DNA of 55,864 nucleotides from Candidatus Nomurabacteria bacterium RIFCSPHIGHO2_02_40_30 (GTDB lineage: Bacteria > Patescibacteriota > Minisyncoccia > Phycocordibacterales > UBA9973). The notes below the pieces were generated by a model, which did not search any database, was not told the origin of the DNA, and worked only from the letters and a program-made list of their open reading frames with translations. Made by a program: the position numbers and the translations under genes. Where the stretch lies: positions 1-55,864 of the forward strand of contig MFTV01000005.1 in the NCBI GenBank assembly GCA_001785445.1. Reading direction: 5' to 3'. This document shows, piece after piece, positions 6,294 to 27,804 of this stretch. Position 1 is the stretch's first letter, and every line of letters starts with the position of its first letter.

Positions 6294-6539
6294 TTACGGA
6301 CTGAATTGCTTAAAATTCTTTAATACGTCACTAGCGCTTCCGTATAGTTGCATCATCTGATCTATGTACGGCTGGATGAAGTAATACGCACCGACAGCAG
6401 AACCTATAATAATTGCCCAGTATAAAACACTCATGATGCGCTGGACTCGCATGGAGCGCCTCATGGAATGCAATATTTTGTTGTTGTCTTCTGCTAGAGC
6501 AAAAGTTTCCTCCAGCAACTTTTTGGATTCAGGATCCAT
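6294..6539 (-). CDS. small single-pass membrane protein
   Basis: An 81-aa protein with a charged N-terminal helix (MDPESKKLLEETFALAEDN), a basic stretch RRSMRVQR and one membrane span near residues 35-55 (VLYWAIIIGSAVGAYYFI). Function is unknown. A -10-like TAAAAT ends 6 nt before the ATG (6546-6551), suggesting a leaderless mRNA and supporting this start. Confidence 0.65.
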   Translation of the reverse strand: MDPESKKLLEETFALAEDNNKILHSMRRSMRVQRIMSVLYWAIIIGSAVGAYYFIQPYIDQMMQLYGSASDVLKNFKQFSP

Positions 6540-6580
6540 GGCGAGATTTTAACACAATATTTCGAAAAATAAAAGAGGTG

Positions 6581-6916
6581 TTAAGAAACCACGCCATCTG
6601 GACCCATTTGTATTATATGGCTTGAATTAGATTTCCCTGAATTACTTTTGTGAGGTCTGTTTGTAGGATAAAAGCCAAGTTTTTCCAGTTTAGCTTTTGA
6701 TACTTTTAGTTCCAGTTCAGTTCTCTCCAATAGCTTGACAACTAATATGTTAAAGTCTCTATTATCAATATCCCCTTTTTCCCTAGCTTTCACTAGGACA
6801 TCTCTATTAATTTCTTCACTGCCAGCGATAATCAGGCTGTGAAGCCTTTTAAATTCAGGAGTCTCAAAACCTTGCATACTTTCTTTCACAACTTCTTTTT
6901 TGATAGCTTCTTTCAT
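6581..6916 (-). CDS. hypothetical soluble helical protein
   Basis: A 111-aa protein, mostly charged helices (KAREKGDIDNRDFNILVVK), ending in a low-complexity NSGKSNSSHII tail. No known domain is recognised. A TATAAT lies about 19 nt upstream, divergent from tRNA-Arg. Confidence 0.55.
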   Translation of the reverse strand: MKEAIKKEVVKESMQGFETPEFKRLHSLIIAGSEEINRDVLVKAREKGDIDNRDFNILVVKLLERTELELKVSKAKLEKLGFYPTNRPHKSNSGKSNSSHIIQMGPDGVVS

Positions 6917-6954
6917 AACTTTTTTTATATGTTATTATAGGGTTAGTTTTATGA

Positions 6955-7026
6955 GTCTTCGTAGTTAAATGGATATAACGACTCCGTCCTAAGGAGTAAT
7001 TGCAGGTTCGATTCCTGCCGAGGACA
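6955..7026 (+). tRNA. tRNA-Arg(CCT)
   Basis: Acceptor gtcttcg/cgaggac, D stem gtta/taac, anticodon stem actcc/ggagt with loop gtcctaa (CCT), T arm gcagg/cctgc with loop ttcgatt. CCA is not encoded. Confidence 0.93.
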
Positions 7027-7028
7027 CA

Positions 7029-7262
7029 TTATAGCCCTAATAATTTGGCTACCTTTGCTCTGTCGAAGCCGACAGTCAGCTCGTCGCCTATTATTATAAC
7101 CGGCACGCCCATTTGGCCGGATTTTTCTATCATTTCTTTCCTTTTTTCTAGGTCGCTAGCGACATTATATTCCACATAAGCCACGTTATTAGCTTTGAAA
7201 TACTCTTTGGCTATATGGCAGAAGTGGCAGGTAGGGGTTGAATAAATGGTTACATTTTGCAT
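7029..7262 (-). CDS. glutaredoxin/NrdH-like redoxin
   Basis: A 77-aa thioredoxin-fold protein with redox motif CHFC after the beta strand NVTIYSTPT, the cis-Pro segment MGVPVIII and a GFDRAKVAKLL C-terminal helix. It probably reduces disulfides in the cytoplasm, for example for ribonucleotide reductase. The partner is not in the window. It lies tail-to-tail with tRNA-Arg, only 2 bp apart. Confidence 0.88.
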   Translation of the reverse strand: MQNVTIYSTPTCHFCHIAKEYFKANNVAYVEYNVASDLEKRKEMIEKSGQMGVPVIIIGDELTVGFDRAKVAKLLGL

Positions 7263-9841: not shown

Positions 9842-11605
9842 TTATTGAAGGAATCCTCCAGTTTGATGATTCCACAAATCGGCATACAGGCCGTCTTTTG
9901 ACAAAAGTTCTTTGTGTGTCCCCTCTTCGACAATTTTTCCTTTATCTAACACAATAATTCTGTCCATTTTTTGAATGGTAGAAAGCCTATGGGCAATGAC
10001 TATTGTGGTTTTGCCCTTCATGAGTTCTGTAAATGCATCTTGTATGTACGATTCACTAATACTATCAAGAGAACTTGTGGCCTCATCCAGCATAAGTATT
10101 GGAGAATCTTTCAGCATTGCGCGAGCGATAGCCACTCTCTGCCTTTCCCCACCCGAGAGCTTTACTCCCCGTTCGCCCACCAGTGTGTCATAACCTTTTG
10201 GTAATTTTGAAATAAAATCATCAGCGTGAGCTTTTATGGCAACATCTATAACTTCTTCTTGACTTGCATCTATTTTACCATAATTTATATTTTCCTTAAT
10301 CGGTCTATGAAAAAGTATCGGCTCTTGGGGTACATACGATATAACACTTCGCAAGTCGTCTTGAGTAACATTTCTAATATCTTGGCCATCTATGGTTATG
10401 CTTCCCTCTGTAATATCGTTAAATCGCAAGAGAAGCTTCGTGATGGTAGATTTGCCGGCGCCAGAATGCCCGACAATGCCCACCCGCTCCCCGGGCTTAA
10501 TATCTAGATTAAAATCAGTTAAAACTTCTTCGCCCATTTGATATTTAAAAGATACATTATGAAATATAATACGTCCTTCTTTCATCTTCAATGCTTCGGG
10601 ATTTTTAGGGTCCAATATGTCTGGAATTATTTCAAATATATCAACCATTTCCTGCATATCAGCAATAGATTTCATAAATCTAGTAAGTGAATTTCCGAAT
10701 TCCCATAAATTGTTGGAGACAATCACCATGTAAGTTTCAATAAGCACAACCGTTCCGGTAGATATTTGGCCTTGCAACCATAGAGTTATCACTAGGTAAA
10801 GAGTTATGCCTTGAACGCATATTATCAATAAATGTTGTATTAGGTCTATTTTGGCGCCCATGAATGAAGCTTTTTTACTTCTCTTGGCTCCTTCTGCAGT
10901 ATATTTGCCAAAAGAATCTATTTCCTTACTTCTAGCCGAAAAAAATTTCACCGCCAATATATTTGAAAACACATCTGCAAGTCGCCCGCTTATTCTCGAG
11001 TCCTGTTCAGCTTCAGAGAGATCATATGCAACTTTTCTTTTAACAAGAAAAGAAACTATCGCCATATGCACAACTACCCAAATGCCGAAAACTAGGCTTA
11101 TAATTTGAGATTGATAAATAAGCACCACAAATACGCTGGTTAAAATTACAAAAAACTTTAAAAAATTATATAAAAATATTTCAAATGTTATTTCAAAGCC
11201 TCCTACAAAGCGCCTAGCTTTAGTTACCAAGCTTCCGGCAAAAGTATTGGCAAAGAAAGTTTGAGAATGGTTTTCTATTTTCTGAAACGCAAAATTGCGA
11301 AGATCGCGAATAACGTCAACTTCAAATTTTAACAAAACAAATTTTATGATTCTGGCTATAAAAAAAACAAGGATGTGTATTCCTATAATAATAAACAACA
11401 GTTTATAGATATCGTAGGATACAATCTCGGGACTGCCGAGTCCTTTGGAAAATATATCAATAATCTTTTTAAAATATAAAGGAATTACTATCTCACCAAA
11501 AAAGACTCTACTACTGAAAACCACTACTATGCAGAAAAAAACCCACTTGCGCTTACGCATTTGTGGCCACACATATTTAAAAATCTTCCTAAACGAAAAC
11601 ATCAT
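9842..11605 (-). CDS. ABC transporter, fused permease-ATPase
   Basis: A 587-aa half-transporter of the exporter type: about six membrane segments in residues 20-320, then an ATPase with Walker A GHSGAGKST, signature LSGGERQRVAIARAML, Walker B ILMLDEATSSLD and H-loop AHRLST. It probably dimerises to export lipid, peptide or drug; the substrate cannot be told. It starts MM, and a -10-like TAGAAT lies just upstream. lepA follows at 3 bp. Confidence 0.93.
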   Translation of the reverse strand: MMFSFRKIFKYVWPQMRKRKWVFFCIVVVFSSRVFFGEIVIPLYFKKIIDIFSKGLGSPEIVSYDIYKLLFIIIGIHILVFFIARIIKFVLLKFEVDVIRDLRNFAFQKIENHSQTFFANTFAGSLVTKARRFVGGFEITFEIFLYNFLKFFVILTSVFVVLIYQSQIISLVFGIWVVVHMAIVSFLVKRKVAYDLSEAEQDSRISGRLADVFSNILAVKFFSARSKEIDSFGKYTAEGAKRSKKASFMGAKIDLIQHLLIICVQGITLYLVITLWLQGQISTGTVVLIETYMVIVSNNLWEFGNSLTRFMKSIADMQEMVDIFEIIPDILDPKNPEALKMKEGRIIFHNVSFKYQMGEEVLTDFNLDIKPGERVGIVGHSGAGKSTITKLLLRFNDITEGSITIDGQDIRNVTQDDLRSVISYVPQEPILFHRPIKENINYGKIDASQEEVIDVAIKAHADDFISKLPKGYDTLVGERGVKLSGGERQRVAIARAMLKDSPILMLDEATSSLDSISESYIQDAFTELMKGKTTIVIAHRLSTIQKMDRIIVLDKGKIVEEGTHKELLSKDGLYADLWNHQTGGFLQ

Positions 11606-15566: not shown

Positions 15567-18401
15567 CTACAATACAATGTTGATAAGTCTGTTTTTTACA
15601 TAAATAACCTTTTTGATATCTTTGCCTGCAAGATACTTTAAAATTCCACTATTTTTGCAAGCTTTATTTTTTACCTCTTCTTCTTTTTCCTCAACTCCAA
15701 TCATCATTTCCGCTCTTACTTTACCATTTATCTGCACTACAACTTTTATTTCTTCGTCTTTAATTAAATTTTCATCAAACGAAGGCCAAATAGAAAGATG
15801 AATGGAATTTTTGTTCCCTAAATTAAACCATATTTCTTCGGTGATGTGCGGGGCAAACGGCGACAGAAGCTGCAGAAATTTTTCATACACATCTCGAGAG
15901 ATAAAATCTAATTTTCCAACTTCGTTCAAGAAAATCATGAAAGTGGAAATAGCTGTGTTAAATTTCATATTTTCTATATCAAAACTTACTTTTTTTATTG
16001 TTTTTTCGACTTCAAATTCAGAATATTTTTTATTCTTTTTTATTTTGTACTGGAGATTATATACCCGCTCCAGAAACCTCCTAGGTCCAATCAAGGCCTC
16101 TTCACTCCAAGCAATAGTTTGGTCAAATGGCCCCATGAACATTTCGTAAAGTCGGAGTGTATCAGCGCCGTACCTTTTCACAATATCATCAGGATTTATG
16201 ACATTGCCTCTAGATTTAGACATCTTTTCCCCATTTTCGGCCAAAATAAGTCCGTGTGAAGTGCGTTTCATGTACGGTTCGCTGGTCGGCACCAGTTTTA
16301 AATCAAAAAGGAATTTATGCCAAAAACGTGAATATAGAAGGTGTAATGTGGTATGTTCATTCCCGCCATTATACCAGTCCACAGGCATAAAATGCCTGAA
16401 ATTTTCAATTTGCAATTTCCAATTTTCAAATGAAGCAGAACCACTGAAACCTTTCTTGCTCATACAATAAGCAAGATAGTACCAAGAAGAGCCAGCCCAG
16501 TTCGGCATGGTATCTGTTTCCCTCTTCGCCTTTCCTTTACAACTTGGACATTTCACATTCACCCACTTTTCTATATGCGCCAATGGACTCTCGCCTGTAT
16601 CTGTCGGCTGATAATTTTTCATCTTACCTGTTAACTTGGGCAATTCCACCGGCAAATCTTTCTCCGGCACAGGCACCAGCCCGCATTCTCCGCAATTTAT
16701 AACCGGAATCGGCTCGCCCCAGTACCGCTGGCGTGAAAAAATCCAGTCCCGAAGTTTGAAAGTTACTTTTTCTTTTCCTCCGACAAAATTTATAATTTCT
16801 TTTTTCGCTTTTTCAGATTCCATGCGGTCAAATTTACCAGAATTTACGAGCAGTCCCCCTCCCGTATACGTAGCTTCTTTTATTTTACCGAGAAAACCAT
16901 TCCAGACTAAATCTCTCTCTACAATACTTAAAAATTCATACACTTCGTCTTTTTTCTTCCAGAAAGTTATGAGTTTGTCATTCTCTTCTTTTGAAATAGG
17001 TACTTGTTCACCATTTTGCAATTCAAAATATAAATAACGAAATCGGGCAAGCGTATTGTTATTTTTCATTTGATGATAAAAGTATATAAACGAAAAGCCG
17101 CCAATTTGCCGGACAAATTTGGCACTTGTGTACCCTGCCTCTTCTTGTATCTCTCTCTTGCCGGTTTCTATTAAATCTTCTCCCTTTTCTATGCCACCGG
17201 AAACCATAGAATGAATACTCGGATGATTTCTCCACTGCAGACATAAGTACTCGTCTTTTTCCCAGTGCTTTACAATACACATTACTGCATCACGGTCTAC
17301 GTGAGGTACACCATCCCTAGGAGTCTCTTGCGGAACTGTGCTTTTTGATACAGCTGCGACAACTTGCTTTATGGGTAAATTAAATTTTTTGGCAAATTCA
17401 AAATCCCTGTCATCATGCGCCGGCACACCCATGATGGCCCCTGTGCCATAGTCAGCAGATACATAATTAACGACAAAAACAGGTATCATTTCACCACTAG
17501 CAGGATTCTTGGCTGTAAGTCCTGTATCAGCGCCAATCTTTTCTTTATTTTCTCTATCAGTATCTACTTTTATTCCAAAGTCTTTACCTGTTAATTTCTT
17601 AGCGACTTCTGGGGCAATGGCTAAAAATGTCGCACCGAAAATAGTATCTGGTCTAGTTGTGAAAACTTTTATACGATTCGGGTGTCCAAGACCCGAAATT
17701 TCAAATTCTATCTCTGCTCCTTCGCTCTTACCTATCCAGTTGCGCTGTCCTAACTTTATCTGTGGTAAATAATCCACATCATCTAAATCTTTATAAAGCC
17801 TCTCGGCATATTTGGTAATAGCCAGCATCCACTGTTCTTTTTCTTTTTTCTCTACCGTTGTTCCACAGCGCTCACATGCGCCATTGATGACTTCTTCATT
17901 AGCAAGTCCAATTTTATCTTTCGGACACCAATTAATCATCATTCTTTTTTTGTAAGCCAAGCCCTTTTTAAAAAACTGCAAAAATATCCATTGAGTCCAT
18001 TTATAATATTTAGTATCTGTTGTGTTAATCTCCCGTGACCAGTCGAAAGATATGCCAAGTGATTTTATTTGTCGCCTAAATGTGTCAGTATTGGCTTTAG
18101 TAACCACCCGTGGGTCTTTGCCTGTCTTGATGGCGTAGTTCTCTGTCGGTAGTCCAAATGCATCCCAGCCGATGGGATATAAAACGTTAAAACCTTGCAT
18201 TCTTTTTTTGCGAGAAATAACATCCATGCCAATATAAGGCCTCGGATGCCCCACATGAAGACCGTCACCAGAGGGATATGGGAATTCTATCAAGCTGTAA
18301 TATTTTGGCTTTTTCGATTTATTACTTGCTTGATATGTCTTTTTTTTATCCCAAAAAGTTTGCCACTTTTTTTCAATTTTCTTATGGTCGTAAGATTTCA
18401 T
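15567..18401 (-). CDS. leuS: leucyl-tRNA synthetase with inserted Nudix domain
   Basis: Class Ia LeuRS with HIGH-equivalent HVGH, zinc-type CERCG and C..C segments, CP1 editing residues (TTRPDTIFGATF, GVPAHDDRDFEFA), SWYYLAY, KMSKSRGNVINPDDI and the C-terminal VQINGKVRAEM domain. At 944 aa it is longer than usual (about 800-880). Residues about 360-500, between LPIKQVV and YTGGGLLVNSGKFD in CP1, form a Nudix hydrolase domain with a full box: GGIEKG-E-DLIETGK-RE-IQEEAGY. A second small insert near residue 660 encodes NWKLQIENF. Catalytic and editing motifs are intact. Confidence 0.95.
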   Translation of the reverse strand: MKSYDHKKIEKKWQTFWDKKKTYQASNKSKKPKYYSLIEFPYPSGDGLHVGHPRPYIGMDVISRKKRMQGFNVLYPIGWDAFGLPTENYAIKTGKDPRVVTKANTDTFRRQIKSLGISFDWSREINTTDTKYYKWTQWIFLQFFKKGLAYKKRMMINWCPKDKIGLANEEVINGACERCGTTVEKKEKEQWMLAITKYAERLYKDLDDVDYLPQIKLGQRNWIGKSEGAEIEFEISGLGHPNRIKVFTTRPDTIFGATFLAIAPEVAKKLTGKDFGIKVDTDRENKEKIGADTGLTAKNPASGEMIPVFVVNYVSADYGTGAIMGVPAHDDRDFEFAKKFNLPIKQVVAAVSKSTVPQETPRDGVPHVDRDAVMCIVKHWEKDEYLCLQWRNHPSIHSMVSGGIEKGEDLIETGKREIQEEAGYTSAKFVRQIGGFSFIYFYHQMKNNNTLARFRYLYFELQNGEQVPISKEENDKLITFWKKKDEVYEFLSIVERDLVWNGFLGKIKEATYTGGGLLVNSGKFDRMESEKAKKEIINFVGGKEKVTFKLRDWIFSRQRYWGEPIPVINCGECGLVPVPEKDLPVELPKLTGKMKNYQPTDTGESPLAHIEKWVNVKCPSCKGKAKRETDTMPNWAGSSWYYLAYCMSKKGFSGSASFENWKLQIENFRHFMPVDWYNGGNEHTTLHLLYSRFWHKFLFDLKLVPTSEPYMKRTSHGLILAENGEKMSKSRGNVINPDDIVKRYGADTLRLYEMFMGPFDQTIAWSEEALIGPRRFLERVYNLQYKIKKNKKYSEFEVEKTIKKVSFDIENMKFNTAISTFMIFLNEVGKLDFISRDVYEKFLQLLSPFAPHITEEIWFNLGNKNSIHLSIWPSFDENLIKDEEIKVVVQINGKVRAEMMIGVEEKEEEVKNKACKNSGILKYLAGKDIKKVIYVKNRLINIVL
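16383..16432 (+). repeat. hairpin plus AT-rich repeat inside leuS
   Basis: A 6-bp stem aggcat/atgcct (16383-16397) is followed by attttcaatttgcaattt-type sequence (16401-16431). It resembles the tsaD insertion in arrangement and plus-strand orientation, though leuS is read from the other strand, so it encodes a different peptide (NWKLQIENF). Confidence 0.6.
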
Positions 18402-20277: not shown

Positions 20278-21105
20278 CTATATGAGAAACTCTACCACAT
20301 CTCCGTCTTTTACTATGTATTCTTTACCTTCGGTGCGCACCCAACCTTTTTCTCGCGCTTTAGAAAAAGAGCCGGCTTCTATTAGCTGATCGTAAGAAAC
20401 GACTTCCGCACGAATAAATTTCTGCTGAAAATCGGTATGGATTGACTTGCCGGCAAAAGGCGCCGTCGCTCCACGGAGCGTAGTCCATGCCCTTGATTCA
20501 TCTTCACCTGTGGTAAAAAAGGTAATAAGATTTAATAAATCATAACTCGCTTTAATGAGGTTATCTAATCCTGTGCCGAAAATTGGGTCGACTTCTATAT
20601 GTGGGCCGGACAACTTAGAAACGAAATCTCTTTTAACTATATCAGCAGCCTCTGATGTATTTAAAACATACAACGTGGGTTTTTTAATATTTGCAAGTTC
20701 AAGCTCCATATTTATAACTTCAATGTCAAAAAGTGGGTCCACTTTGTCATGCACGTGAATCATGTCTTTGTCTTCAAAGATGCGCACTACCTCAAGTATA
20801 GCGTCCACCTCGCGGATATGAGATAGAAATTTATTTCCAAGTCCCGCCCCCTCTGATGCGCCCTTAACAAGTCCAGCAATATCTACAAACTCTACCACAG
20901 CCGGAATAGTTTTCTTTGACTTAGATATAGCTGAAAGCTTGTCCAAGCGCTCATCTGGCACTGGAACAATCCCCACCGATGGGTCAATGGTACAGAAAGG
21001 ATAATTCTCTGCCGGCACGCCCTTCTTAGTCAGCGCGTTAAAAAGCGTGGACTTCCCCACATTGGGCAAACCGACTATGCCTATCGTTAGTTTTGTATAC
21101 GACAT
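20278..21105 (-). CDS. ychF: ribosome-binding ATPase YchF, shortened
   Basis: Obg-family ATPase with G1 [11 protein letters not shown]3 [26 protein letters not shown] and the C-terminal TGS-like domain ([38 protein letters not shown]). Full YchF is about 363 aa; this is 275 aa. [10 protein letters not shown] runs straight into KKPTLYVLN, so the antiparallel coiled-coil (helical) domain of about 80 residues is missing. No frameshift is visible, so it looks like a clean domain loss. The recombinase gene overlaps its 5' end by 68 bp. Confidence 0.92.
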
Positions 21106-22711
21106 TTTGATATAACGATAGGGGTATGCTACCGGACACTTGAAGTTGTTTCTGAGTGCCGATAATTTTTCCTACCGTACTTCTGATTATAGCTTGTCTC
21201 GCCTCAAAACTTAAATTTTCAAGGGTTTCCGATATCTCCTCTGAAAATATTTTCACCTGATTTTCAGTCGGCATCGTAGCAACATTAATATTACTTTCTT
21301 CTTGTTCGACCTTTCTTATTTGCGACTCAAGCTCTTCTTTTTGCTTGTTCCTTGGTATTGTATACTCCTTTAATTTTTCTAAGGAAAATAATCCGGCACC
21401 ATAGGCATTGTTATATCGATCCACTTGTTCCTTTAATTTTGTGATATTTTTTTGTATTGTGTCTATATCAATGCCGGAGGCTTTGATCTTATCTTTTCGA
21501 TTTTTTCTCCACCGATCCATTTCTGCCAACATCCGATCCGGAGATGTTATCAGTCCTATAATTCCTTGCCACACCATTCTATCGGCGATCCTTGCATTGA
21601 TTCCTCTCTCCATGCATGTAGGAGGTAGTGGGAAACTGTAGATCCTATCACTGCATCGATAATAAAGGTGCTTGCCATGTTGAGGACCTTCACCGCATCT
21701 TTTTTTACCGCATGAGCAGTGGATCTTGCCGCCAAGAAGATATTCATTTTTAGTTCTTCGTTGACACAACACAAAGTTAGTTTTTAGTTGGGCTCGCACT
21801 TTCATAAAAAGTTCGTCGTCAATGATGCGTGGTATTGGGATATTTGGTGCGATCCATTCTGCTTCCGGTTTAATTCTTCGGCTAGTCTTTTTTACTTGTC
21901 GATATTTTTCCGTCTTTATAGGATTCACTGGAACTACCGCATAAGAACTGCCCCAGTGTCCCTGTCCTGTGTATCCTTTGTGTCGTAGCATAGTGGTAAG
22001 GGTACTAGTGGCCCATACACCTCTTTTGCTTCTTCTTGGTTTGATGCCAAGCTCCTGAAGTCTCCGCACCACTTGGCGAAGTGTTAGTTTCTCTTCACCA
22101 ACCCATACGAATATCATTCTCACGACCACCGCTTCTTCTTCGTTGATAACATAGTAGCCATGCGTTTTTGTCTCTTTATTATTGCGAATGTAGCTATATC
22201 CATACAGAGCTTCTGTTGTAAGAATGTGACCATTCTTCACCTTGCGAAGTTTGCCGAGACGAAAGCGTTCCGATATTTTTGCTCGTTCATATTCAGAAAA
22301 TAATCCACGTACTCCATAAAGAATTTTATCCTCCATATTTTTTGGCGTAGATACTGTAACAAAAAATACTTCAATACCAGCTTCTTTCAGTTCATCCATC
22401 ACCAACTCTTGCAATGAATACCGACGAGCTAGCCTGTCTGGATCGTAAATCATTACTGCATCCCAGATTTTTTTCTTTGAATCAACACGAAGCTCGTCGA
22501 GTTTTGGTCTTACAATGTTGTCGCCGGACCAACCCTCGTCAAGATATTGTCTGACTATGGTGTAGTTGCCGGGACCGAATTTTTTATCGGCAAAATCCTT
22601 CATTGCCATGATTTGATTCTGAATAGTTTCCTGGTCCTCTTGAAGCGAAGTCGAGACTCTTCCATAGAGAGCAATAAACCAATGTATTCCGTTGTTGATG
22701 ATGTCAACCAT
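21038..22711 (-). CDS. large serine recombinase (site-specific integrase)
   Basis: A 557-aa resolvase/invertase-type recombinase: catalytic Ser in [10 protein letters not shown], then YDPDRLARR and [17 protein letters not shown], a recombinase domain ([22 protein letters not shown]), a zinc ribbon ([15 protein letters not shown]) and a C-terminal coiled coil. Such enzymes integrate phages and islands without host factors other than a directionality factor. Its last 22 or so codons are read through the 5' end of ychF in another frame. The 58-aa HTH gene ends 4 nt upstream. Confidence 0.93.
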
Positions 22712-24253: not shown

Positions 24254-24377
24254 TTATAAAATATAACTAAAAATAGAATAGTAGAACGCGATTACACACT
24301 ATAAACCTATTATTATCATTGAGTTATCCACATAACCATACATGGGTGTATGCACAAAATACCCTTATAAAATATAA
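24254..24377. other. possible replication-origin-like segment
   Basis: A perfect DnaA box TTATCCACA (24324-24332) is flanked by two copies of ttataaaatataa (24254-24266 and 24365-24377) in a gene-free AT-rich stretch. No Rep gene is recognised nearby, so an origin is only a possibility. Confidence 0.35.
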
Positions 24378-24439
24378 GAAAACCCCGAAAAATATGTGGT
24401 CTAAAACTAAAGTCAATACCCTAGATATTTATATTGCAA

Positions 24440-24990
24440 ATAAAGCCTTGTTTACCATCTTAGCCAGTATTATTCCGTAGTACCCAGATAGGATGTTAGG
24501 TGGTGAGTGACCGAAGATAACAAAGCTCGGCACATTGCAACGGCAGCAATGCCATTGCGGGAATACTGGTAGGGTGTGGAGGCTTTTGCTTCACGGTCCA
24601 ATCCGCCTACTGGTCGCCATTAAACTGGACCCCCTCTGATGAGCCGTGACAGCATTCCGGCCCCGGGGAAACTAGCACATGATAGAGATCGTGTTCTGAT
24701 TTCCCCGCCAATCAGTTGGCAAACCTAAGGGAACCTAACGAAGTATTGTGGCCTACCCCTTTCGAAAAGAGATGCACCCTATCAAAAGACTTGAAAATTA
24801 CAGTCTGAGCCTGGGACAAAAACGCACATAACATCAATACAATATCTTCCCATAGATTAAAGAAGGGATAAAAGATATGAGATTCCACAGGCAATACGCC
24901 ACTAGGACACATAGCCCAACAAGGACGGCTATTCCCCCCTCTTGCCCGAAAAAAGGATGGTTGGTTCAATTCGGTGGTGCTAATAACATT
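24440..24990 (+). ncRNA. candidate large structured RNA
   Basis: A gene-free, locally GC-rich stretch of about 550 nt with many complementary segments: 24464-24471/24562-24569; 24537-24545/24550-24558 capped by loop gcaa (GNRA type, favouring plus-strand RNA); 24595-24600/24626-24631; 24665-24671/24700-24706; 24707-24711/24716-24720 (loop tcag); 24911-24916/24927-24932. No group II domain V, RNase P, tmRNA or SRP core was recognised. Size and mobile context recall GOLLD/ROOL-like RNAs, but homology was not tested. From 25000 to 25263 the sequence is AT-rich with nothing seen. Confidence 0.5.
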
Positions 24991-25263
24991 CAATTAATTA
25001 TTTCATTTTCAGTTCATACGCTCAGGTTTTGTGTGATTCCATCCGTACCATAATTTGTATGCCAATTCAAATTCATTCAATTATTATCCAAATTTATGTT
25101 TCCAGTTTTTGTAAAGTCAAATTGCCAAATTTCTGCCCAAAATTGGAGCATTTTCAAAATCAACCAATTTCAAAAAATGTAATTTTCTACAAAACCGGCT
25201 ATGAATAGGGAAAAACTTCCCAGCAAGCAGACAATACAAAATATTCTGTGTTCAACAAAATAG

Positions 25264-25779: not shown

Positions 25780-26104
25780 ACCATGGATTATATTAGAGTC
25801 CTTGTGTTTTTGTACATATTAACCATTTGTCAAGGAAGATGGAAAAAATTACGCAGAAATTTTTAGGACCATTGAATTCAAAAAACAGAAAAAGAACCAA
25901 ATCCGTTTTTTGAGTCCGCCCTCCATGAAATGACCCTATCCTATTCTGCAGATTGACCGCTTGAAGCTACCAAAGCACTCCCCGGATGGCTCCTACCGTC
26001 TTATAGCCCCCATACTACCACTTGAATAGTAATAATGAAGCATATTATCAATAACAAAACGCTTCAGCATGATCTAGTCCGTCATGTTTTTATTATTTAT
26101 TATT
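25780..26104. other. intergenic region between divergent gene sets
   Basis: About 325 bp without a gene. It contains a tgaagc/gcttca inverted repeat around 26027-26067, just before the plus-strand operon. Nothing else is recognised; it probably holds promoters for both directions. Confidence 0.4.
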
Positions 26105-26422
26105 ATGCAAAGTCTAAAAGAAATCATAGATAGTCCTGTGACCACCTACAAGGGGTCAGAAGCAACCAAATCAATGGTTGAGGAGCAACTCATAGCAAAA
26201 TATGGTAAGGCAGAATTAAAAAACCTAGACTGCTATCACAATATGAGAACATTCCATTCTTGGTTAAATTTAGGTTGGAAAATACGTAGAGGGGAAAAAG
26301 CGATTAAGTCTATTACTTTTGTGGAGCAGAAAGATGCTAATGGCAATATTCTAAAACAGTTTCGTCGTCCTGTTTTTCTCTTCTATTACCGCCAAGTCGA
26401 AAAGATTGGTACAGCAAAATGA
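26105..26422 (+). CDS. ArdC N-terminal-like protein
   Basis: A 105-aa product from ATG 26105 (an upstream ATG at 26084 is possible). The segment YHNMRTFHSWLNLGWKIRRGEKAIK, then VFLFYYRQVEK, resembles the ssDNA-binding N-terminal domain of ArdC-type anti-restriction proteins, without the metalloprotease half. Such domains are common on plasmids and conjugative elements. It overlaps the next gene by 4 bp. Confidence 0.6.
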   Translation: MQSLKEIIDSPVTTYKGSEATKSMVEEQLIAKYGKAELKNLDCYHNMRTFHSWLNLGWKIRRGEKAIKSITFVEQKDANGNILKQFRRPVFLFYYRQVEKIGTAK

Positions 26423-26619
26423 AAAAGCAAATGACCGTTGGTTACCAAAACCGGCAAGGGGCTAGAGGTGATCTGCCAACAGCTCAAAAAATTACTCTAG
26501 CAAACCACTTGATTAAAAAATTGAGTGGTTTTTCAGTTGGAGATAAAGTGACAGTCGAATATTCTCCAAGTGTGATTATTATTACTAAAATTGATTCAAA
26601 CTTATGCCAGAAACAATAG
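26419..26619 (+). CDS. hypothetical small basic protein
   Basis: A 66-aa protein with RQGARGDLPTAQKITL and a beta-hairpin-like end (FSVGDKVTVEYSPSVIIITK) recalling SpoVT/AbrB-type folds, though this is weak. It starts inside the stop of the previous gene and overlaps the next by 16 bp, so it belongs to a coupled operon. Confidence 0.55.
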   Translation: MKKQMTVGYQNRQGARGDLPTAQKITLANHLIKKLSGFSVGDKVTVEYSPSVIIITKIDSNLCQKQ

Positions 26620-27275
26620 TACAGCCGGACATCAACTATATCAAAAAGGGTATTGATGTTTTAGCAGAAAAAAGAAAGGTGTTTACGGAGTTAATCTTCC
26701 CCACACTGATCCCTGAACAGGATTATTGGGTTACAGACGACGGAAGAAAGGTTTTGTCTAAAGGTGGTGCCGAACGTCTAGCAGAAATCTATTCCATAAC
26801 CGCATTATTCATTGCTGACAAAGAATCTCTTGCTTTCTTTGGCAACTCAAGCGGAACAATAGCCTATCGTTGCATTCTACGGAGAGAAGGAAAAATAATC
26901 GGAGAAGGTCGAGGCAGTGCTTCAACTAAAGACCATGACGAATCTATAAATTCCACTATCAAGGTCGCACAAAAATCTGCATTTGTGGACGGAATCTTGA
27001 GAGTAACCGGGATGTCTTTCTTGTTCTCGCAAGATTTTCTACCGGAGGATAAGAAAGAGGAACCGGACTTAGAGGGTAGAGACAGAATTGCAAGTTTTAA
27101 TCACGAGGATTTACCAAAATTTGCAACCGAAAAGCAACGCACCTTCTTACTCCAATTAATCAATGAGAAATGTAGCAGCTCGTCCAAAGAGGAATATCTG
27201 AGCCAATTAAACTCCTCTCACCTATCACGATACGATGCCTCAGAATTAATTTCGAGTTTGCTCCCAATGAAGTGA
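26604..27275 (+). CDS. hypothetical protein, 223 aa (possible DNA recombination role)
   Basis: Contains KGGAERLAEIYSI, YRCILRREGKIIGEGRGSAS and STIKVAQKSAFVDGILRVTG, a pattern seen in some mobile-element and phage proteins near single-strand DNA functions. The C-terminal part is a helical segment (KFATEKQRTFLLQLINEK). A role in single-strand DNA handling with the ArdC-like neighbour is a guess. Confidence 0.55.
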   Translation: MPETIVQPDINYIKKGIDVLAEKRKVFTELIFPTLIPEQDYWVTDDGRKVLSKGGAERLAEIYSITALFIADKESLAFFGNSSGTIAYRCILRREGKIIGEGRGSASTKDHDESINSTIKVAQKSAFVDGILRVTGMSFLFSQDFLPEDKKEEPDLEGRDRIASFNHEDLPKFATEKQRTFLLQLINEKCSSSSKEEYLSQLNSSHLSRYDASELISSLLPMK

Positions 27276-27583: not shown

Positions 27584-27701
27584 GTTTGGCTCAACGCATA
27601 TTATTCTACTTTTGCAATATAGGTTTATATGCTATTCTTTATATATAACTGAATAAGTGAGATGTCTAAACTAGTAGCAATACTAGCATGACAAACAAAG
27701 T

Positions 27702-27804
27702 CCAAGCAGGACAAAAAACCCATCATATGGGGTTGACCTGCTTGGCTACGCCGGGAAACTGGCGTAAGTGACGAAAGTCACTAACCTCTGTGGTGGGCTT
27801 TTTG
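27702..27804 (+). ncRNA. candidate structured leader RNA with pseudoknot potential
   Basis: Stem A: ccaagcagg (27702-27710) with cctgcttgg (27737-27745), 9 bp perfect. Two hairpins follow: tacgcc/ggcgta (27747-27752/27761-27766) and agtgac/gtcact with a GAAA loop (27767-27772/27777-27782). A long helix can form between 27712-27726 and 27790-27804 (GU pairs and one mismatch), extended by ggggtt (27729-27734) with aacctc (27783-27788). Stem A and the long helix interleave, so they form a pseudoknot or are alternatives. A run of T5 at 27799-27803 suggests termination. No known riboswitch was recognised. Confidence 0.6.

Follow-up and report, generated by a model that had tools for sequence, protein, structure and literature searches.

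A candidate large structured non-coding RNA carried by ychF-integrated serine-recombinase islands

Few large structured bacterial RNAs are known. One of them, ROOL, was resolved as an octamer by cryo-EM; phages and prophages are its reported carriers, often with tRNA islands nearby (PMC12286853). GOLLD, often longer than 800 nt, is conserved in its 3′ region (PMC12286853). Both assemble from RNA only, with no known function or, in the case of ROOL, protein partner, and the large bacterial RNAs solved recently are RNA-only cages or dimers whose function is unclear (PMC12286853).

Here we describe a GC-rich block in a mobile island of a small-genome bacterium. The window, the whole stretch of 55,864 nt that was analysed, is contig 5 of a 714-kb genome that is 97% complete. 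An earlier note on this DNA had proposed a possible new large structured RNA in the island, and this stands as the best reading of the block, which has no Rfam match, has homologues in other genomes and can be folded into helices with compensatory changes.

The block and its island

The block had been placed at 24440–24990 as a gene-free, GC-rich segment, and both properties were borne out by GC bins and the ORF listing. The GC fraction was 0.472 at 24501–25000 as against 0.328 and 0.324 in the neighbouring 500-nt bins, and in 150-nt bins it was 0.49 and 0.53 at 24450–24750 as against 0.27–0.29 just outside the block (G+C 47–53% for the block, about 30–35% for the flanks). The + strand of the block had no ORF of at least 60 aa, and the sole ORF of that size, a 93-aa frame with a TTG start on the − strand (24712–24993), had no Pfam match. 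A coding origin was rejected because no reading frame is open throughout the three homologous blocks described below. The best-conserved extent falls slightly within the segment first delimited (Table 1).

The “many complementary pairs” claimed for the block exceed chance, but only modestly so when judged from the window sequence alone. Compared with shuffled sequences, folding gave z values of −1.8 on the + strand and −0.3 on the − strand for 24440–24990, and −2.9 and −0.6 for 24502–24950; as a yardstick, the LOOT RNA of the same island gave −7.9 in the same kind of scan. We regard folding energy by itself as weak evidence for the block, and it is conservation in other genomes that lifts it above chance.

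The mobile setting was confirmed by a large serine recombinase with Pfam Resolvase and Recombinase domains, which overlaps the start of a ychF-like gene. The same recombinase–ychF junction was seen again in three related islands, L045, L071 and L072, and together with the window island they therefore form a family of ychF-integrated islands. The recombinase of the window island is 70% identical to that of L072, 55% to that of L071 and 50% to that of L045. Public records with related islands include Nomurabacteria and Zambryskibacteria, which points to a Patescibacteria-type host. Other genes of the window island are an ArdC-like gene, a phrog_10048-like gene (26604–27275) and a nuclease homologue, with a Type III restriction-like set further right; the right end of the island was searched for and not found. 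The zinc-ribbon protein encoded next to the block belongs to no Pfam family, and its AlphaFold model (pLDDT 80, pTM 0.52) had no PDB match at E ≤ 0.001.

Several further features of the window were observed. The segment 32750–41337 carries defence-like cargo, namely a Type III restriction subunit, a Schlafen AlbA_2 protein and a DNA methylase, followed by an XRE-like regulator and an ImmA/IrrE-like gene, both recognized by eye. The start region of the ArdC-like gene (26037–26139) is 77% identical to island L052 (blastn E 3e-10); the match extends upstream past the start codon and may represent a conserved promoter or operator. The leucyl-tRNA synthetase encoded at 15567–18401 (−) contains a NUDIX domain (Pfam E 2e-10, residues 370–477) directly after the editing-domain match (220–354), an unusual insertion for this enzyme.

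Homologues and predicted fold

At gathering thresholds, cmscan of the whole window found no Rfam family at the block, nor did cmscan of 24300–25100 at E ≤ 5 or of the L071 and L072 homologues; in keeping with the novelty claimed for the block, there was thus no simple match to a known family at gathering or permissive thresholds. The GOLLD, ROOL and OLE covariance models had no match in the block, L071 or L072, and those for group I and group II introns, RNase P RNA and tmRNA had none in the block, where ARAGORN found no tmRNA either. The LOOT RNA model (RF03000) matched the window only at 27663–27782 and not at the block. The block is probably a new family, on its sequence, within the known kind of large structured bacterial non-coding RNAs.

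When blastn was run with the block against phages, plasmids, 380 genomes of the phylum and 297 genomes of the order, only self or chance matches were obtained. Homologues were reached via neighbour proteins: the zinc-ribbon and phrog_10048-like proteins led to sister islands, and further islands came from aligning zinc-ribbon proteins (A2). Two of these, L071 (genome G710) and L072 (genome G807), both ychF-integrated serine-recombinase islands, contain a homologous block whose helices are retained by compensatory changes. Together with the window genome (G000), they represent three different orders of one class. Local alignment of the block against shuffled sequence gave z values of 35 and 39 for L071 and L072, and blastn gave E 7e-21 for both when searched within the small island set. 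Other intergenic sequence of these relatives is largely unalignable at such a distance.

Conservation is concentrated at the two ends. The 5′ domain was described by a covariance model, R1, which scores the window at 151 bits, a partly circular value since R1 was built from all three sequences, the window among them. The 3′ end has a core, TCCCCCCTCTTG, that is nearly invariant among the three copies, as is the wider pattern GGACGGC..(T)CCCCCCTCTTG.CC. Between the 5′ domain and the 3′ end the sequence diverges and the helices stay.

The candidate RNA family is, as far as the genomes searched indicate, rare and carried by mobile islands. In a survey of 286 genomes of the class, the block was present in only three (the window genome, G710 and G807), and searching the families and orders to which G710 and G807 belong added no further copy; some genomes are common to several of these sets, and stricter filters were applied in scoring the larger sets. 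Weak R1 matches in G729 (apparently coding), G766 (beside a probable tRNA gene) and G680 (without the conserved 3′ motif) were treated as chance. R1 had no match in islands L042, L044, L046, L047, L049, L052, L073 and L074, of which L049 and L052, found via the ArdC-like protein (A1), are without the block. Since most related islands have no R1 match, the RNA would be dispensable for such elements. Searches of phages, plasmids and viral contigs gave no homologue: the 44 viral contigs bearing the 3′ motif TCCCCCCTCTTGYCC had zero R1 matches, and the viral contigs had no relatives of the zinc-ribbon protein, the 150-aa neighbour protein or the recombinase.

Neither alignment nor R1 showed homology to the block in the matching gaps of L042, L043, L045, L046 and L047. 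The gap of L043 holds a different gene-free block (10370–10800) with long hairpins, whose folding is far more stable than that of shuffled sequence on either strand (z −6.0 and −6.8). Neither Rfam nor R1 matches it, 12 other genomes of the family lack a copy, and it is possibly a second large RNA. The same gap of the syntenic island L045 holds a gene-free, somewhat GC-raised block (6430–7070; z −3.7 on the − strand, 20 shuffles), again unlike the window block by alignment.

Table 1 Island genes, homologous blocks and predicted structural elements (window coordinates unless another island is named)
Feature	Position	Strand	Evidence or remark
ychF-like GTPase gene	20278–21105	−	5′ end is the integration site, likewise in L071, L072, L045
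Large serine recombinase of the window island	21038–22711	−	Pfam Resolvase + Recombinase
Zinc-ribbon protein gene, 171 aa	25264–25779	−	Adjoins the RNA block in all three islands; arrangement varies
Candidate large structured RNA, conserved extent	24502–24949	+	Sequence and structure homology with L071, L072
L071 homologue	L071 7051–6590	−	Alignment and structure
L072 homologue	L072 5449–5892	+	Alignment and structure
5′ conserved domain (covariance model R1)	24502–24664	+	73–77% identity to homologues over ~160 nt
H1 hairpin, ACCGA/UCGGC	24510–24514 / 24527–24531	+	A-U to G-C in L072
H3, enclosing H2	24535–24539 / 24556–24560	+	
H2, GNRA-capped hairpin GGCA-GCAA-UGCC (GCAA tetraloop)	24542–24553	+	C-G to U-G in L071
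H7 long-range helix, GGGAAUA/UAUUCCC, 5′ domain to 3′ end	24559–24565 / 24930–24936	+	
H4, CUGGUAGG/CCUACUGG	24566–24573 / 24606–24613	+	8 bp in each copy, with one pair changed on both sides
H5, GGUCCA/UGGACC	24595–24600 / 24626–24631	+	UCGUUA/UAACGA in both homologues
H6 hairpin, GCCG/CGGC, conserved loop GACAGCAUUC	24643–24661	+	TCTA/TAGG or TCTA/TAGA in homologues
P8/P8b long hairpin, GGGGAAA/UUUCCCC, inner CACAUGA/UCGUGUU	24665–24706	+	Structure and position
H9a/H9b 3′ hairpin, AUAUCU-UCCC...GGGA-UAAA-AGAUAU, purine-rich loop	24842–24878	+	Structure and position
Near-invariant 3′ end, GGACGGCTATTCCCCCCTCTTGCCC	24925–24949	+	26-nt blastn match, 92%, in L071

The helices were read from the three sequences together and chosen by eye. 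Each copy accommodates eleven helices, which amount in total to 162 Watson–Crick, 19 G-U, one A-C and one other pair (Table 1). Statistics of the R-scape kind would need more than three sequences. The GNRA-capped hairpin that the earlier note had pointed out (H2) recurs in all three copies.

H5 is the strongest structural item. Five of its six pairs are doubly changed between the window and its relatives, a number reached in none of 1000 column shuffles (maximum four, in two of them); the shuffles preserved the gap pattern and conservation class, and the gap adjacent to H5 and the register of H6 had been set by hand beforehand. The strands of H5 are anchored by conserved flanks, AUCCGCC before and GCCAUUAAA after. 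Because H4 crosses H5, the two would form a pseudoknot. H6 has three doubly changed pairs, which hold for the sense strand only. The compensatory changes that a structured non-coding RNA should show in its helices were therefore found (five doubly changed pairs in H5 and three in H6, n = 3 sequences). RNAalifold, run on an untouched MAFFT alignment, gave z −3.0 for the sense strand, a value matched by 2 of 200 shuffles; the antisense strand had z −1.7.

The remaining helices were matched in other ways. P8/P8b is alike in architecture in L071 and L072 and unrelated in sequence; H9a/H9b is likewise alike in architecture in both, matched by structure and position with a sequence that cannot be aligned. 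The counterparts of H7 are GGAGU/ACUCC in L071 and GGGGAGA/UCUCCCC in L072, with the register off by one in the window; two G residues could pair in either H3 or H7, but not in both.

Strand, placement and alternative readings

In single-sequence folding of the three copies, the z values for the sense versus the antisense strand were −2.9 versus −0.6, −2.6 versus −2.4 and −2.4 versus −0.5, so that the sense strand, the + strand of the window, is favoured in two copies and the strands are near equal in the third. H4 and H6 retain all their pairs on the sense strand only, because of G-U pairs. These data bear on the possibility that the block serves the mobile element in cis at the DNA level (as a replication origin, single-strand origin, or transfer or packaging site), with hairpins that act as DNA. 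The block is intergenic and near element core genes, a perfect DnaA box, TTATCCACA, lies at 24324–24332 in an AT-rich stretch just upstream, and the related islands L042 and L043 have similar DnaA boxes near their zinc-ribbon gene. However, in the parts of L071 and L072 that were examined, both of which share the block, no TT[AT]TCCACA was found. One strand is preferred by folding and by consensus energy, and several helices rely on G-U pairs, which would be mismatches in DNA. An interlocked pseudoknot with sequence-conserved loops is also more typical of RNA, and we consider a DNA structure unlikely.

Consensus scans, of little information value here, picked up neither a clear sigma-70 promoter nor a U-tract terminator where the window copy is predicted to begin and end. 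In L072, a TATAAT lies just upstream of an extra 5′ hairpin that is common to L071, which fits a putative transcription start there. The placement relative to the zinc-ribbon gene differs among the islands: in L071 and L072 the block is upstream of the gene on the same strand, and in the window it is downstream on the opposite strand. This change of placement and orientation, which an independent gene would be expected to show, marks the block as a self-contained module. The alternative of a cis-regulatory leader belonging to the zinc-ribbon gene would be compatible with L072 and L071, where the RNA 3′ end is ~65 and ~257 nt from the start codon on the same strand. A 5′ leader should always be upstream on the same strand, but the window block, being downstream and inverted, cannot be one, and it is far larger than ordinary leaders; this explanation is quite improbable.

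We give very little credence to the idea that the block encodes an omega-like or tracr-like RNA that guides a nuclease or recombinase. The RNA would have a suitable size range and resides in a mobile element with a site-specific recombinase; yet Pfam scans of the island ORFs tested found no TnpB, IscB or Cas-type nuclease (the L071 and L072 islands were partly scanned), and the adjacent IscB, TnpB or related nuclease of an OMEGA or reRNA system was not found by Pfam among the neighbouring ORFs of the window. Moreover, only two partners recur, the recombinase and the zinc-ribbon protein, and the majority of their relatives are without the RNA. That the block is non-functional, a decayed gene or a chance GC-rich insertion, would agree with the modest single-sequence z and its absence from most related islands but is scarcely tenable, being largely refuted, as we see it, by homologues with 73–77% identity over ~160 nt across orders, a near-invariant 3′ end and compensatory changes between.

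Proposed role and comparison with known systems

Comparison of the three copies makes it fairly probable that the block encodes on its + strand a large (~450–500 nt) structured non-coding RNA, a self-contained module of the ychF-integrated serine-recombinase islands of this class; that it is transcribed and acts in trans we infer. The transcript would fold into a compact particle with a conserved 5′ domain (H1, H2/H3, the H4/H5 pseudoknot and H6), a variable middle with P8, and the 3′ hairpin H9, and the near-invariant C-rich 3′ end would dock onto the pseudoknotted 5′ domain via H7. Confinement to one kind of integrative element together with mobility inside it suggests service to the element in trans, which the folded particle might provide as a scaffold or homo-oligomer made of RNA, in the manner of GOLLD and ROOL, or as a ribonucleoprotein formed with a protein of the island, for instance the zinc-ribbon protein. 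The stage served may be excision, replication or transfer of the element. The zinc-ribbon gene, beside the RNA in all three islands, offers a concrete candidate partner, and the fold gives sharp predictions, namely the H4/H5 pseudoknot and the H7 closure.

A bolder and only tentative proposal is that the RNA founds a class of its own among the large ornate RNAs of bacterial mobile elements, without kinship to GOLLD, ROOL or OLE, and forms an RNA-only or RNA–protein particle for Patescibacteria-type integrative elements. If this were true, the unrelated structured blocks in the L043 and L045 gaps would mean that such islands reserve a place for large RNAs of different kinds. Another family, unrelated to those known and carried by mobile islands of bacteria this small, offers an independent case in which to ask what large RNAs do for mobile DNA.

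The likeness to giant phage and plasmid RNAs drawn in the earlier note holds for size and mobile setting, but kinship is unsupported by sequence, with no phage, plasmid or viral homologue found. OLE is likewise a large ornate bacterial RNA but has no Rfam match at the block and no sequence relation to it. The LOOT RNA is a structured RNA of the same island (+ strand, 84 bits) and also occurs in L042, L043, L071, L073 and L074, making it a recurrent companion of serine-recombinase/zinc-ribbon islands; it differs from the block in its length of about 120 nt, its separate locus and its lack of similarity. ROOL resembles the candidate as a large pseudoknotted non-coding RNA in mobile or viral DNA, whereas the block has no match to its covariance model and resides in a serine-recombinase island of a small-genome bacterium, with the tRNA genes of the window far off at 1.6–7.5 kb. 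GOLLD differs in that its Rfam model does not match the block, which is shorter and has its longest conserved domain at the 5′ end. Like the candidate, however, GOLLD is a large ornate RNA of mobile or viral DNA, and its one strongly and one weakly conserved region recall the conserved 5′ domain and 3′ end of the block with their variable middle.
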